Below, piece after piece: positions 4,107 to 36,864 of a DNA stretch of 37,403 nt. The stretch comes from Candidatus Magasanikiibacteriota bacterium. Lineage in GTDB: Bacteria; Patescibacteriota; Patescibacteriia; Magasanikbacterales; UBA922. Positions within the stretch are counted from its first letter, which is position 1. The number at the start of each line of letters is the position of its first letter. Made by a program: the position numbers and the translations under genes. The stretch spans positions 1 through 37,403 of the forward strand of contig WJJZ01000009.1 of the NCBI GenBank assembly GCA_014729395.1, in the 5' to 3' direction. The notes under the pieces are model-generated. The model saw only the letters and a list, made by a program, of their open reading frames with translations. It had not been told where the DNA came from and ran no database searches.

Positions 4107-4200
4107 TTAATATAACTTAGTATATGTAAAATTCATGGAAAATTCAAGAGCTCGGATAAAAAAACATACGTCAATTTAACTTTAGTTAAGTAATTTTTAT

Positions 4201-4254
4201 TGTACAATTATAGTCAAATTATAGTATAATTATTGTAATTTACTGTAATTTACT
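4201..4254. repeat. 11-mer (NNNNNAATTAT) repeat cluster abutting ATG 4255
   Basis: tgtacaattat|agtcaaattat|agtataattat|tgtaatttac|tgtaatttact then ATG. Confidence 0.8.
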
Positions 4255-6868: not shown

Positions 6869-7327
6869 ATGTTTTATCTTATCCTACCCAACATCAGATC
6901 ATGTCACAATGTCGGCGCCATGTTTAGAACCGCCGATGCTTTTGGCATTAGTAGAATTTTTTTAGTAGGTTATACGGCCAGTCCGCCCAAAATTCAAATT
7001 GACAAAGTCGCGCTTGGTGCGGAAAAATGGGTACCTTGGGAAAAAAGGGAAGATTTGGCGAGTTTAATAAAAGAACTTAAAGAAAAAGGAGTAAAAATAG
7101 TAGCTTTAGAAAAAAATGATAAAAGTATTAATATTTCTTTAACAAAATTTGATGCCCCGCTTGCTTTAATAGTAGGTAATGAGGTGGAGGGGGTTGAACC
7201 GGATATATTAAAAATGTGTGATCAGATCGTGCATATTCCGATGTACGGGAAGAAGGAGAGTTTGAATGTTTCGGTTGCAGCCGGTGTGGCGATGTATGTA
7301 ATAAACAATAATTACACAATAATTTGA
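6869..7327 (+). CDS. TrmH/SpoU family RNA 2'-O-methyltransferase
   Basis: MFYLILPNIRSCHNVGAMFRTADAFGI; LIVGNEVEGVEPDIL; IPMYGKKESLNVSVAAGVAMY. Start placed at ATG 6869, not the ORF-track start in the terminator. Confidence 0.9.
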   Translation: MFYLILPNIRSCHNVGAMFRTADAFGISRIFLVGYTASPPKIQIDKVALGAEKWVPWEKREDLASLIKELKEKGVKIVALEKNDKSINISLTKFDAPLALIVGNEVEGVEPDILKMCDQIVHIPMYGKKESLNVSVAAGVAMYVINNNYTII

Positions 7328-7398
7328 CCATAATTACACAATAATTATTTTAATTATCGTCAAATCATTGTTAAATTATCATATAATTATAGTATTCT
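7317..7398. repeat. 11-mer repeat cluster abutting ATG 7399 and overlapping the 3' end of the SpoU gene
   Basis: acaataattac|acaataatttg|accataattac|acaataattat ... cgtcaaatcat|tgttaaattat|catataattat|agtattct. Confidence 0.8.
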
Positions 7399-8070: not shown

Positions 8071-8117
8071 AAACAATAATTCAACCATAATTATACAAAT
8101 ATTATACAATAATTTAT
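8071..8117. repeat. 11-mer repeat cluster abutting ATG 8118
   Basis: acaataattc..accataattat|acaaatattat|acaataattta. Confidence 0.7.
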
Positions 8118-8511: not shown

Positions 8512-8585
8512 AAATAATTTATCCGTAATAATTGTGCAATTATTGTGTAATTATTGTATAATTACTGTATAACTATTGTAACCCT
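8512..8585. repeat. 11-mer repeat cluster abutting ATG 8586
   Basis: tccgtaataat|tgtgcaattat|tgtgtaattat|tgtataattac|tgtataactat|tgtaaccct then ATG. Confidence 0.8.
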
Positions 8586-15619: not shown

Positions 15620-16228
15620 ATGAATCGTCAGCGTTTGAGGAAAATCGCAAAAAAATATGAAAAAAAAGATGTTCTTTACAAAGCGGAAGAAATTGAAAGA
15701 AGAGTGAGGAAGGTTAGTCACATCATTGCCAAAGCTCATCGAGGGACAAAAGATTTGGTTTTGGTTGGTGTTCTAAATGGAGCGGCGATATTCACAAGAG
15801 ATTTGTTATTTTTTCTACACGAGTTCGGAATGAGTCCTCAGTTGGGATTTATAGGTATGTCTCTGTTTGATGATAGTAATAAGAGAAGGTTGGATGGTCC
15901 GAGAATCACCAGCCCTTTGTCAATTGATGTAACAGAAAAAACAGTGATGGTGGCCGAAGATGTAATTGAAACCGGTGACACGATGAGACTTTTGATAAAA
16001 CATTTAAAAAGTCTTGGTGTCCGGAAGGTTGAAATCGTGACTGTTATGGCTAACTACGGATTTAAACCAAATAAATTTGGTCTACCCAAAACTCATATTT
16101 GTTTTAGAAAAATTCCCGAACATTTTATTGCCGGATACGGTATGGATAACAAGGGAATGGATAGAGGTTATCCGCACATATATAGGGTTTATGCCAAAGG
16201 GCAACCCCGTCCGGTAGGACAATTCTAG
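15620..16228 (+). CDS. hpt: Hypoxanthine phosphoribosyltransferase-like protein
   Basis: DLVLVGVLNGAAIFTRDLL; VMVAEDVIETGDTMRLLIKHL PRPP loop; SD aaggaggtg upstream. Confidence 0.87.
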   Translation: MNRQRLRKIAKKYEKKDVLYKAEEIERRVRKVSHIIAKAHRGTKDLVLVGVLNGAAIFTRDLLFFLHEFGMSPQLGFIGMSLFDDSNKRRLDGPRITSPLSIDVTEKTVMVAEDVIETGDTMRLLIKHLKSLGVRKVEIVTVMANYGFKPNKFGLPKTHICFRKIPEHFIAGYGMDNKGMDRGYPHIYRVYAKGQPRPVGQF

Positions 16229-16429: not shown

Positions 16430-16960
16430 ATGTCCGATTACAAGATCAAAAAATTGATTTCCGGTGATGAGATTCAAATTCGTGCCAAGGAAATGGGGCG
16501 GAAGATTGCCGGGGATTTTGAGGGTAGACCAATTCATGTAGTGGTTGTCCAGTTGGGTGCTTGGATGTTTGGGGCTGATCTGATAAAAAATATTCCGACA
16601 AACCAGTTAACTTTAGACAGTATCCAACTTTCCAGCTATAAGGGCGATACGGAAAGTTGTGGACTGGTGACGGTTGTGCGCGATCTGGTTCGTCGTGTCA
16701 AGGGACAGGACGTTTTGGTAGTGGAGGATATTGTTGACACCGGCCGCACTATTTCTGAGTTGCAGAAGAATTTAAAGCGTCGAGGGGCAGCCTCAGTTCA
16801 AGTGGCTACCATGCTCAACAAGCAAGATGGCCGCGAGATTGACTTTGAACCTGATTATGTTGGTTTTGAGATCCAGGATTGTTTTGTTATCGGGTATGGT
16901 CTTGACTACCAAGAAAGATTTCGTAATTTGCCATATGTGGCAGAAATGGTTTTCTGTTGA
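16430..16960 (+). CDS. hpt: Hypoxanthine phosphoribosyltransferase-like protein (second copy)
   Basis: VLVVEDIVDTGRTISELQKNLKRRGAASVQVATMLNK; SD taggaggtgcatcATG. Confidence 0.87.
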   Translation: MSDYKIKKLISGDEIQIRAKEMGRKIAGDFEGRPIHVVVVQLGAWMFGADLIKNIPTNQLTLDSIQLSSYKGDTESCGLVTVVRDLVRRVKGQDVLVVEDIVDTGRTISELQKNLKRRGAASVQVATMLNKQDGREIDFEPDYVGFEIQDCFVIGYGLDYQERFRNLPYVAEMVFC

Positions 16961-16972
16961 TTAGTAAAGGTT

Positions 16973-16999
16973 TAGCCCTGCATTATTGTGGGGTTTTTT
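16973..16999 (+). terminator. Intrinsic terminator
   Basis: agccctgcattattgtggggttttttg. Confidence 0.6.
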
Positions 17000-17000
17000 G

Positions 17001-17029
17001 TTGACAAAATTATTGTTTTTGCCTAAAAT
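17001..17029 (+). promoter_or_regulatory. Promoter of the ileS T-box leader
   Basis: TTGACA-N17-TAAAAT. Confidence 0.75.
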
Positions 17030-17039
17030 AACCATATAA

Positions 17040-17211
17040 TCATAAAAGCTTTGATCCCGGCTATCACCGGGGGAGTTGCCGGAAGAAAACCTGTATCATA
17101 GGTAAGTAGAACCGGCCGGGTAAGCCCGTAATCGCTATATTAAGAGCCACTAAGTTGGAAATGAGGTGGTACCGCCCGGATGGGTCCTCATACACTGGTG
17201 GTTTTTGTTTT
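17040..17211 (+). ncRNA. T-box riboswitch leader (ileS, ultrashort stem I type)
   Basis: CTATCACCGGGGGAGTTGCCGGAAGAA (ATC specifier 17063-17065), GTAGAACCGGCCGGGTAAGCCCGTAA, T-box GAGGTGGTACCGC, directly upstream of ileS. Confidence 0.85.
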
Positions 17212-17216
17212 TTATA

Positions 17217-17332
17217 ACTATACTATAATTATACAATAATTTGACGATAATTATACGATAATTTAACAATAATTATTTTTAAATTATGGTCAAATTATAT
17301 TTTAATTATTGTACAATTATTGTTAAATTTTT
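17217..17332. repeat. 11-mer repeat cluster (inverted halves) between T-box and ileS ATG
   Basis: ataattataca|ataatttgacg|ataattatacg|ataatttaaca|ataattatttt ... aaattatggtc|aaattatattt|taattattgta|caattattgtt. Confidence 0.85.
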
Positions 17333-30553: not shown

Positions 30554-30608
30554 GTACAATAATTATTGTTTAATTATAGTCAAATTATTGTATAGTTATG
30601 GTGTAATA
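30554..30608. repeat. 11-mer repeat cluster
   Basis: tgtttaattat|agtcaaattat|tgtatagttat|ggtgtaatacc. Confidence 0.7.
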
Positions 30609-33425: not shown

Positions 33426-34231
33426 AAACTCACTTTTTCATCACTTGGACTAGATTCTGGTATAAGCGATAAGAAAGTGAGGAATAAGAGGTTGAAGCGA
33501 GATGGGCTCGTTACAATTCAATCAACAAACAATTAAGCAAATTGTAAGTAAAATCATGATTATATTCAACGATAATCATGATGGGTAATAAGCACAATTT
33601 TGTGTTTTCGTTGTACGCAATATAAGGGCGTACGGTGGATGCCTAGACACTAAAAGTCGATGAAGGACGTCGCAGGGTGCGATAAGCCTCGGTTAGGTCC
33701 CAAGCAACCTTTGACCCGGGGATTTCCGAATGGGGGAACCCACCTCTTTGTGAGGTACCTTATACTGAATTCATAGGTATAAGGGGTCGACCTGGCGAAG
33801 TGAAACATCTCAGTAGCCAGAGGAAAAGAAAACAAATTATGCTTCTTTTCTACACCTTGAAAGTTTTAGCTTTTAAGGTGTAGTAAAAAAAGCTGTGATT
33901 CCCTTAGTAGTGGCGAGCGAACGGGGAACAGCTCAAACCTTTATCGTGTTGTCATATTTTATTGGTCTTCGGACTTTCTAGGATATGACTTAAAGGACAG
34001 GCCGTTGCGATTTAGGTGTTGTAGGGTAAAAACGTCGGTAACCTGTTTAGCCGGATATATTATTTTATATATAATTGAAAATCTCTGGAAAGGGATACCA
34101 AAGAAGGTGATAGTCCTGTAGATAAAATATATATGATAATGTGTTGTTTTTATTCCTGAGTAGGGCGGAGCACGTGAAATTCCGTCTGAATCTGCCGCGA
34201 CTATGCGGTAAAGCTAAATACTTTTAGTGAT

Positions 34232-34268
<37 letters not shown>

Positions 34269-34830
34269 CAGCCCGGGAGGGCGATGAAATAGTATCTGAA
34301 ACCGTACGCTTACAATGAGTTGGAGCCCGCTTTTGCGGGTGACAGCGTTCCTATTGAAGAATGAGCCTGTGAGTGTGTAGTTGTTGCAAGCTTAAGAGCC
34401 TATGGTTCGAAGGCGTAGGGAAACCAAGTCTTAACCGGCGATTTAGTAATAATTACACGACCCGAAACCGAGTGAGCAATCCATGACCAGGTTGAACCCC
34501 GACGAAAGTCGGGGGGAGGACCGAACCCACGCGCCGTGCAACACGCGGGGATGAGTTGTGGATAGCGGAGAAATTCCTATCGAACTCGGTAATAGCTGGT
34601 TCTCCTCGAAATAGCTTTAGGGCTAGCTGTATGTGTTCCTGCTGGTGGTAGAGCACTGGATGAGAGCGAGGTCCCTCGGGATACTCCTTTCAATCAAACT
34701 CCGAATGCCAGTAGTCAAAACATGCAAGTCAGACTGTGGGGGCTAAGCTCCATGGTCAAAAGGGAAACAGCCCAGATCGTCAACTAAGGTCCCTAAATCA
34801 CCACTAAGTGTAAAAGGCGGTGAAGATTCT

Positions 34831-34882
<52 letters not shown>

Positions 34883-34978
34883 CAGCTCACTGGTCAAGAG
34901 TCTTTGCGCCGAAAATGTACCGGGGCTAAGTGGTGTACCGAAGTTACGAATTATTGTGTCTCACTAACGTTCGACACT

Positions 34979-35083
34979 GAATTACGAATTAAGAATTATT
35001 AATTTTGATTCAATTTTGAATTATTTAATGATTAAACATTAGAAATTCAATCAAAATTTAAAATTTTAAATTCAAAATTTGAG
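34979..35083. repeat. 15-unit heptamer palindromic repeat inserted in 23S rRNA
   Basis: gaattac|gaattaa|gaattat|taatttt|gattcaa|ttttgaa|ttattta|atgatta|aacatta|gaaattc|aatcaaa|atttaaa|attttaa|attcaaa|atttgag. Confidence 0.88.
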
Positions 35084-35583
35084 TGGCGAGCGATAGCGAG
35101 ACACGATAGTGGTAGAGGAGCATTCCTAACTGCTGTGAAGTCGGATCCGCGAGGACCGGTGGAGCGTTGGGAAGAGAGAATGCAGGCACAAGTAGCAAAA
35201 ACGAGGGTGAGAGTCCCTCGCGCCGAAAGTCCAAGGTTTCCAGGGCAACGTGAATCGTCCCTGGGTTAGTCGATCCTAAGGTGAGGCCGAAAGGCGTAGC
35301 CGATGGAAGAGCAGGTTAATATTCCTGCACTTGGCATAGTTTGTTATGATATGCGTATCTCAAAGGTGTGAGCGTTGTAAGGCTACACGTTTCGCAAGAT
35401 AGAGACCAATCCTTCGGGGGCGGTCAATTTACACTGGAGAGGTATCTAGAAAAGTATTATAACGCTAGGCTATGTCAAACCGTACCGATAACCGACACAG
35501 GTGGACAGGTCGAGAAGACCAAGGCGTACGAGAGAAACATGGTTCAGGAACTCGGCAAAACAGCGGCCGTAATTTCGAGATAA

Positions 35584-35712
35584 GGCCTTCCTCCTACGCC
35601 CTTCGTTTCACTTCGGGCTTCGGAGGACAAGTCCTTCTACTTTCAAAGAAATGTAGAATAAAAGGGACTTGTCCTCCGTAGCTCAAGCGGAGCGCAGAGC
35701 GTAGGAGGACGC
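35584..35712. repeat. Nested palindromic insertion in 23S rRNA
   Basis: TCCTCCTACGC/GCGTAGGAGGA enclosing GGAGGACAAGTCC/GGACTTGTCCTCC enclosing TTCTAC/GTAGAA. Confidence 0.85.
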
Positions 35713-36434
35713 AGCTAAAGACTCCATGCGACTGTTTACCAAAAACACAGCTCCCTGCAAAAGCGCAAGCTGAAGTATAGGGGGCGATGCCTGGCCAGTG
35801 TCAGAACGTTAAGGGAGCGGGTTATTTGTCCTTGTGGCAAAGAAGCTTGCGACCGAAGCGCTGATGAACGCCGGCGGTAACTATAACCGTCCTAAGGTAG
35901 CGAAATTCCTTGTCGGGTGAGTTCCGACCCGCACGAATGGCATAACGGTGTGGAGACTGTCTTAACCATGTACTCGGCGAAAATACAAGAGTCGTGAAGA
36001 TGCGACTTACCCGCAGCTAGACGAAAAGACCCCGTGAAGCTTTACTACAACTTGACATTGGTATATTGTTTCACATGTTCAGCATAGGTGGGAGCCTTCG
36101 GGCGCCAGTGAGATACCACCCTTGTGTTGTGATATACCTAATCCAATGCCGTGAATCCGGCATGGGAGACAGTGTCTGGTGGGTAGTTTAACTGGGGCGG
36201 TTGCCTCCCAAATTGTAACGGAGGCGTTTACAAAGGTCGGCTTAGCCCGGATGGAAATCGGGCTGGACGTGCAAACGCAAAAGCCGGCTTTACTGCAAGG
36301 GCTACCACCCGCGCAGTCACGAAAGTGGAAGTTAGTGATCCGACCGTACGAAATAGGACGGCGGAAGCTCAACGGATAAAAGTTACTCCGGGGATAACAG
36401 GCTGATCACGCCCAAGCGTCCACAGCGACGGCGT

Positions 36435-36558
<124 letters not shown>

Positions 36559-36594
36559 CTATCTGCTGTGGGCGTTGAACGTTGAAGGAACTCA

Positions 36595-36636
<42 letters not shown>

Positions 36637-36680
36637 CCAGCTGTTCTGCCAAGGGCATTGCTGGGTAGCTAAGTTCGGTG

Positions 36681-36714
<34 letters not shown>

Positions 36715-36864
36715 GTTCCTAAGATTAACGTTCGTTATTAGACTCGTTCGAGACGAGGACGTTGATAGGCGCTAGGTGAAAGGTCCGCAAGGATTTTAGC
36801 CGAGGCGTACTAATATGTCGAGCGTACTACGGAAACACAAAGCTGTGCTTAAAAATAGATCGTG

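Follow-up and report, generated by a model that had tools for sequence, protein, structure and literature searches.

A Class III T-box riboswitch ahead of ileS in a Magasanikbacteria genome and a putative embracing terminator

In a 37,403-nucleotide stretch of DNA from Candidatus Magasanikiibacteriota bacterium (contig WJJZ01000009.1; hereafter the window, whose positions are used throughout) we identify a T-box riboswitch in the leader of ileS, the gene for isoleucine--tRNA ligase. We propose, with a probability of about 0.7, that this Class III T-box controls ileS by premature transcription termination, via a helix that embraces the antiterminator. With less assurance, though still on the favorable side of even, we further propose that bacteria of the CPR (Patescibacteria) use T-boxes widely and that in Magasanikbacteria and their relatives the Class III sensor drives a new type of expression platform: the purine motif and Stem III strand that senses aminoacylation would itself be the terminator 5' arm, and the terminator would embrace an intact antiterminator hairpin. 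Sequence evidence shows the T-box, its specificity, its covarying core, the U-tract and a covarying embracing helix; termination, its dependence on tRNA charging and the exact mechanism of exclusion are what we infer from these.

Detection and anatomy of the ileS leader

A search with the Rfam T-box covariance model RF00230, the check proposed in a preliminary description of this DNA made from its letters alone, recovered positions 17042-17192 (+) over the full length of the model (1-219 of 219; 53.9 bits, E 3.9e-11). The score falls short of the curated gathering score of 93, which is a reporting threshold rather than a structural feature, and a default Rfam scan is therefore silent at this leader. 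The same search on control genomes gave matches above the gathering score in two of the five with an RF00230 match, known T-box carriers falling below it as well; a scan at the gathering threshold, which found no T-box, was set aside, the curated cut-off being too strict for short forms. The T-box is real, and is the single one in the 1.01 Mb Magasanikbacteria genome, where the model gave no further match. The three strings that the preliminary description had quoted, CTATCACCGGGGGAGTTGCCGGAAGAA, GTAGAACCGGCCGGGTAAGCCCG and GAGGTGGTACCGC, occur in the leader, and its reading of them as an ileS T-box with an ultrashort Stem I and specifier AUC is borne out. The features of the leader and its surroundings are as follows:

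16974-16998 (+): intrinsic terminator of the preceding hpt-like gene, from a scan (9-pair stem, then TTTT)
17001-17029 (+): candidate sigma-70-like promoter, TTGACA-17-TAAAAT (11 of 12 consensus matches)
17042-17192 (+): T-box riboswitch, Class III (ultrashort Stem I); RF00230 53.9 bits, model R1 136 bits, the latter high by construction
17047-17077 (+): Stem I, base AGC/GUU and hairpin CCCGG-CUAUCA-CCGGG; covarying pairs in alignment A2
17063-17065 (+): specifier AUC in the apical hexaloop, cognate to tRNA-Ile(GAU); ATC invariant in A2
17078-17116 (+): Stem II with S-turn strands AGAAA / AGUAGAA; covarying pairs and conserved motif
17117-17135 (+): Stem IIA/B (CGGG/CCCG) with F-box-like CCGUAAUCGC; A2 structure
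17142-17150 (+): AAGAGCCAC, RRRxG motif and 5' strand of Stem III, which would serve as terminator 5' arm in the embracing fold; minimum free energy (MFE) pairing, covariation and swap tests
17147-17158 (+): short Stem III (CCA/UGG); fold with the terminator arm unpaired, RF00230 alignment
17161-17191 (+): antiterminator, with A1 AUGAGG/CCUCAU, bulge UGGUACC (17167-17173) and A2 GCCC/GGGU; covarying pairs
17198-17206 (+): GUGGUUUUU, putative 3' arm of the embracing terminator; MFE pairing, covariation and swap tests
17202-17213 (+): U-tract UUUUUGUUUUUU, of a kind common after CPR ileS T-boxes
17214-17329 (+): inverted arrays of an AT-rich 11-mer, between the terminator and the start codon
17333-20332 (+): ileS, 999 aa (TIGR00392, 946 bits against a cutoff of 621)

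By the four-class scheme (PMC10482949) the leader falls in Class III: it has a short Stem I devoid of the elbow-binding motif, a specifier in an apical penta- or hexanucleotide loop (here CUAUCA, 17061-17066) and a Stem II, which covaries. Compensatory changes are seen at 23 of the 27 core pairs in alignment A2, which comprises 13 CPR leaders, that of the window among them. By analogy with known structures Stem IIA/B would form a pseudoknot. The RRRxG motif takes the form AAGAG and is followed by a Stem III of 3 bp. The specifier AUC fits both the ileS product and a tRNA-Ile(GAU) with discriminator A that is encoded in the same genome, and the UGGU at 17167 in the antiterminator bulge complements the 3' ACCA expected for this tRNA.

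Given the terminator at 16974-16998, the T-box and ileS constitute their own transcription unit. The promoter that the preliminary description had placed at 17001 was recovered with its 17-nt spacer and a TAAAAT ending at 17029, and is a candidate by virtue of its consensus match. The T-box starts about 13 nt after it, so that the RNA would begin almost at Stem I. Upstream lie two adjacent hypoxanthine phosphoribosyltransferase-like genes, at 15620-16228 (below the TIGR01203 cut-off) and 16430-16960 (above it).

A helix embracing the antiterminator

The U-tract begins 10 nt past the antiterminator. The preliminary description had likened ATGAGG...CCTCAT, together with a further string, to a terminator arm; a terminator-like arm does exist, the U-rich stretch being its 3' arm, whereas ATGAGG...CCTCAT is the antiterminator helix A1. 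The best partner of the U-rich arm sits upstream: in the MFE fold 17198-17206 pairs with 17142-17150 without mismatch, G-U pairs included, and the resulting helix encloses the antiterminator hairpin. The segment at 17186-17191, which a classical terminator would recruit, stays in A1 in this fold. In a nearest-neighbor model that leaves out tRNA, pseudoknot and kinetics, the embracing state has an energy of -24.4 kcal/mol, against -12.9 for Stem III plus A1 with a free arm. The full leader folded alone is not unusually stable (z -1.3), and such a fold informs little.

In this family the linker upstream of the antiterminator, rather than the antiterminator 3' strand, is the usual pairing partner of the putative terminator's 3' arm. 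The two arms co-vary, as in the combinations AAGCACCAA:UUGGUGUUU, AAGCGCC:GGCGUUU, AAGGCCAC:GUGGUUUU, AAGUGAAA:UUUCGCUU, AAGUGAU:GUCACUU and AAGUGCCUU:GAGGCGUUU. For the 33 ileS T-boxes that lack a local hairpin, the linker-arm pairing of each leader with its own arm amounts to -280.7, against -222.3 +/- 11.9 when arms are swapped (z -4.9; none of 20,000 permutations as low), with the register left free. The 15 ileS T-boxes with a local hairpin gave no linker-arm pairing effect in this test (z +0.27). At helix positions 4-9, in a register chosen to maximize pairing, 78 of 96 pairs are standard against 50.5 +/- 4.5 in swapped combinations (none of 20,000 permutations reaching this), and pair 4 alone occurs as AU, CG, GU, UG and UA. 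The AAG-UUU pairing at the helix end comes cheaply with a U-tract, and it is the inner pairs that carry the statistics; the sequences behind these statistics are related and not independent, and what the numbers support is conservation of the pairing rather than its function. Arm pairs were counted by script, as the MAFFT alignment of the arms was shifted in three rows, and three leaders for which the scripted A1 assignment was unusable (L258, L259 and L335) were assigned from a separate analysis or excluded. A first swap test across all genes and terminator types mixed architectures and was superseded by the tests split by architecture. An earlier idea, that the GGUGGU of the terminator arm mimics the GGUGGU of the T-box, was dropped on finding that relatives with covarying arms, e.g. 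AAGUGAUAA:GUGUCACUU, lack GGUGGU.

Some relatives use other terminators, namely local hairpins or arms that pair with the antiterminator 5' strand. In one leader (L191) the arm is instead a copy of the Stem III 5' strand, and its pairing, of about 16 bp, is with the region of the Stem III 3' strand. Departures of this sort, found in a few leaders, indicate rapid evolution of the expression platform around a sensor that is retained.

These observations bear on two other ways of reading the U-tract and its arm. The first retains a transcriptional Class III T-box and makes the real terminator local, formed by ACCGCC (17171-17176) and GGUGGU (17197-17202), with the embracing helix secondary; such a hairpin would disrupt the T-box bulge and A2. 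We regard this as improbable, though it is the strongest of the competing readings: the local pairing can form (-17.9 kcal/mol, the best local alternative tried) and other CPR T-boxes do have terminators of the classical or the local kind, but it is 6.5 kcal/mol weaker than the embracing fold, and relatives with a short spacer show covariation with the linker. Somewhat less probable still is a second reading, in which the upstream-downstream helix extends A1 and stabilizes the ON state, the U-tract being incidental or part of a weak constitutive terminator. The helix can indeed coexist with A1 in one fold, and in L257 it continues A1 directly; against this, the 3' arm abuts the U-tract, which is the anatomy of an intrinsic terminator, and leaders with a local hairpin at the same place lack the long-range pairing.

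Under the embracing-terminator reading, which we prefer, Stem I and Stem II would read the anticodon of tRNA-Ile(GAU). When this tRNA is uncharged, its ACCA end would pair with the UGGU bulge and stabilize a unit of Stem III and antiterminator; this would occupy the AAGAGCC(AC) strand and deny it to the terminator arm, letting the polymerase read into ileS. When the tRNA is charged, the unit would be unlocked and the upstream AAGAGCCAC would pair with GUGGUUUUU, where the U-tract begins; the helix so formed would enclose the antiterminator hairpin and serve as an intrinsic terminator. The strand that helps to sense aminoacylation would then also be the strand that switches, which is the least secure step of the scheme. 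T-box structures already known show the RRRxG-Stem III-AA motif docked on A1/A2 (PMC7583486). As the embracing helix leaves A1 intact, exclusion by tRNA would have to act via Stem III and the purine motif. A tRNA-dependent change of expression by this leader is a prediction.

Transcriptional versus translational control

The preliminary description had found no Shine-Dalgarno sequence before the ATG and had deemed its sequestration unlikely; both points stand, in that none, sequesterable or otherwise, was found upstream of 17333, and the start codon lies 141 nt beyond the end of the antiterminator. The helix modeled between 17142-17150 and 17198-17206, together with the U-tract that follows the antiterminator, would provide the elements expected of a transcriptional T-box. 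Contrary to what Class III would lead one to expect, 59 of 66 CPR ileS T-boxes have a terminator-like U-tract (defined as 7 or more T in 8) no more than 60 nt after the antiterminator, the expectation from dinucleotide shuffles being 14.2 +/- 2.9 (maximum 22). As ileS has no Shine-Dalgarno sequence, its control is most likely exerted by transcription termination, to judge from the sequence.

The leader shares with the Class III ileS T-boxes of Nocardia farcinica and Mycobacterium tuberculosis (PMC10482949, PMC7583486) an ultrashort Stem I whose apical loop of five or six nucleotides holds the specifier, the Stem II S-turn, the IIA/B element, recognition of tRNA-Ile and placement before ileS. 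Those T-boxes act on translation by sequestering the Shine-Dalgarno sequence, whereas the CPR leader has none and carries a U-tract after the antiterminator. A translational T-box of the actinobacterial kind, with its ribosome-binding site hidden, has little to recommend it: most ultrashort-Stem-I T-boxes known to date act on translation (PMC10482949, PMC7583486), but the distance of 141 nt to the start codon, the lack of a Shine-Dalgarno sequence, the rarity of such sequences among the window genes and the U-tract directly after the antiterminator all speak against it. A Shine-Dalgarno-like sequence precedes only two of the 27 gene starts in the window (15620 and 16430, both hpt-like), although the genome does have an anti-Shine-Dalgarno-like 16S 3' end.

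In the Class I and II T-boxes of Bacillota, a long Stem I bears a tRNA-elbow-binding motif and the 5' arm of the terminator is the 3' strand of the antiterminator. The CPR leader resembles these transcriptional T-boxes (tyrS, glyQS) in having an antiterminator followed by a putative intrinsic terminator, and differs from them in its ultrashort Stem I and in the proposed terminator 5' arm, which lies upstream of the antiterminator. The preliminary description had seen the actinobacterial likeness but had overlooked what is unusual here, a Class III sensor coupled to a putative terminator whose 5' arm lies upstream of the antiterminator. Reviews associate a long Stem I with transcriptional control and an ultrashort one mostly with translational control, on the argument that fast capture of tRNA needs the elbow-binding motif (PMC7583486, PMC10482949). 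Were terminators combined with an ultrashort Stem I throughout a lineage, this link between Stem I length and mode of control would be broken; the CPR leaders make it directly testable.

The interval between T-box and ATG is occupied, as the preliminary description had reported, by the AT-rich 11-mer repeat (17214-17329), which is probably not part of the switch; transcription could restart within it. Arrays of this kind (AATTATTGTA plus one base) also occur at 573-626, 4197-4254, 7305-7394, 8072-8114, 8526-8580 and 30559-30607. Many are inverted pairs, and at least five arrays, including that of ileS, end 1-6 nt before an ATG (4255, 7399, 8118, 8586 and 17333). A genome-wide count gave 59 matches to the AATTATTGTA-type 11-mer and 0 to the reversed pattern. 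These arrays could represent promoters, protein-binding arrays or structured 5' UTRs. Most of the 27 gene starts in the window come after AT-rich stretches.

T-boxes across the CPR

Using RF00230 (E up to 0.001) we recovered matches in 127 of 379 sampled genomes of the phylum, 13 of which exceed the gathering score, and in 8 of 46 genomes of the family. The matches in the phylum lie mostly ahead of aminoacyl-tRNA synthetase genes, which include ileS, valS, aspS, glyS, thrS, proS and tyrS (assigned by clusters, with representatives confirmed). A dedicated covariance model, R1, built from 13 CPR leaders including that of the window, found the short T-box type in 30 of the 46 family genomes and in 91 of 380 genomes of the class. 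The surveyed CPR genomes are mostly metagenome assemblies. The specifier AUC lies in a short apical loop in 57 of the 66 CPR ileS T-boxes. From the family and phylum counts it follows that the T-box of the window is one case of a lineage-wide habit.

The best named relatives of the IleS protein are from Magasanikbacteria and other Patescibacteria, in keeping with the suspicion in the preliminary description that this is a CPR genome; one member of the family, Candidatus Magasanikbacteria CG1_02_32_51, has a T-box of the same type before its ileS. In the IleS phylogeny, which that description had also proposed, the window protein falls in a Magasanikbacteria-rich group (ten rows, SH-aLRT 98) of a tree without actinobacterial IleS. 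The T-box labels on this tree come from a loose pattern, probably with a few false positives, and only the placement of the window protein was used. The ileS T-box is not a stray import: its portrayal as an isolated oddity derived from Actinobacteria finds no support in view of T-boxes in about a third of sampled phylum genomes, the type in 30 of 46 family genomes and the grouping of its IleS with CPR sequences in this tree. A degenerate, non-functional remnant or a recent transfer from Actinobacteria, which the sub-gathering score and the single T-box in the genome might suggest, is very improbable in view of the retention of the type across the family, the compensatory changes, the presence of all functional motifs and a cognate tRNA, and the affinities of IleS in the same tree.

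Two surveys list T-boxes in Firmicutes, Actinobacteria, Chloroflexi, Deinococcus-Thermus and a few Proteobacteria (PMC2494555, PMC3766115). The ileS T-boxes of Deinococcus and Chloroflexi described there are comparable to ours in being T-boxes before ileS outside Bacillota and Actinobacteria, and the CPR is absent from the phyla listed. In the open-access literature, with subscription papers and preprints outside the scope of the search, we found no report of T-boxes in CPR/Patescibacteria. The leader thereby adds a variant to a known class of riboswitch, and its host group is one from which that literature yielded no published T-boxes. Wide use in the CPR bears on whether T-boxes, of which the ileS box is a proposed archetype, are old or were spread by transfer, and would mean that small, probably dependent cells monitor tRNA charging, the host being a tiny, probably symbiotic bacterium.

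Several further observations were made on the leaders collected. Stem III is apparently missing in ten ileS T-boxes (L224, L226, L235, L242, L061, L063, L251, L256, L275 and L279), which have instead a short linker such as AAGUUAAAGU, many with an independent terminator hairpin abutting A1. Tandem T-boxes occur at L137 (G218:C3:25376-25700, before glyS), L313 and L319. A long-Stem-I T-box in the same family, L002 (G026:C20:33137-33407), does not precede a recognized synthetase gene, and an ORF near it may, as judged by eye, encode an amino-acid racemase. In the window itself, the 23S rRNA gene (33611-36831), when compared with the bacterial consensus, carries several insertions, each some 20-60 nt long.
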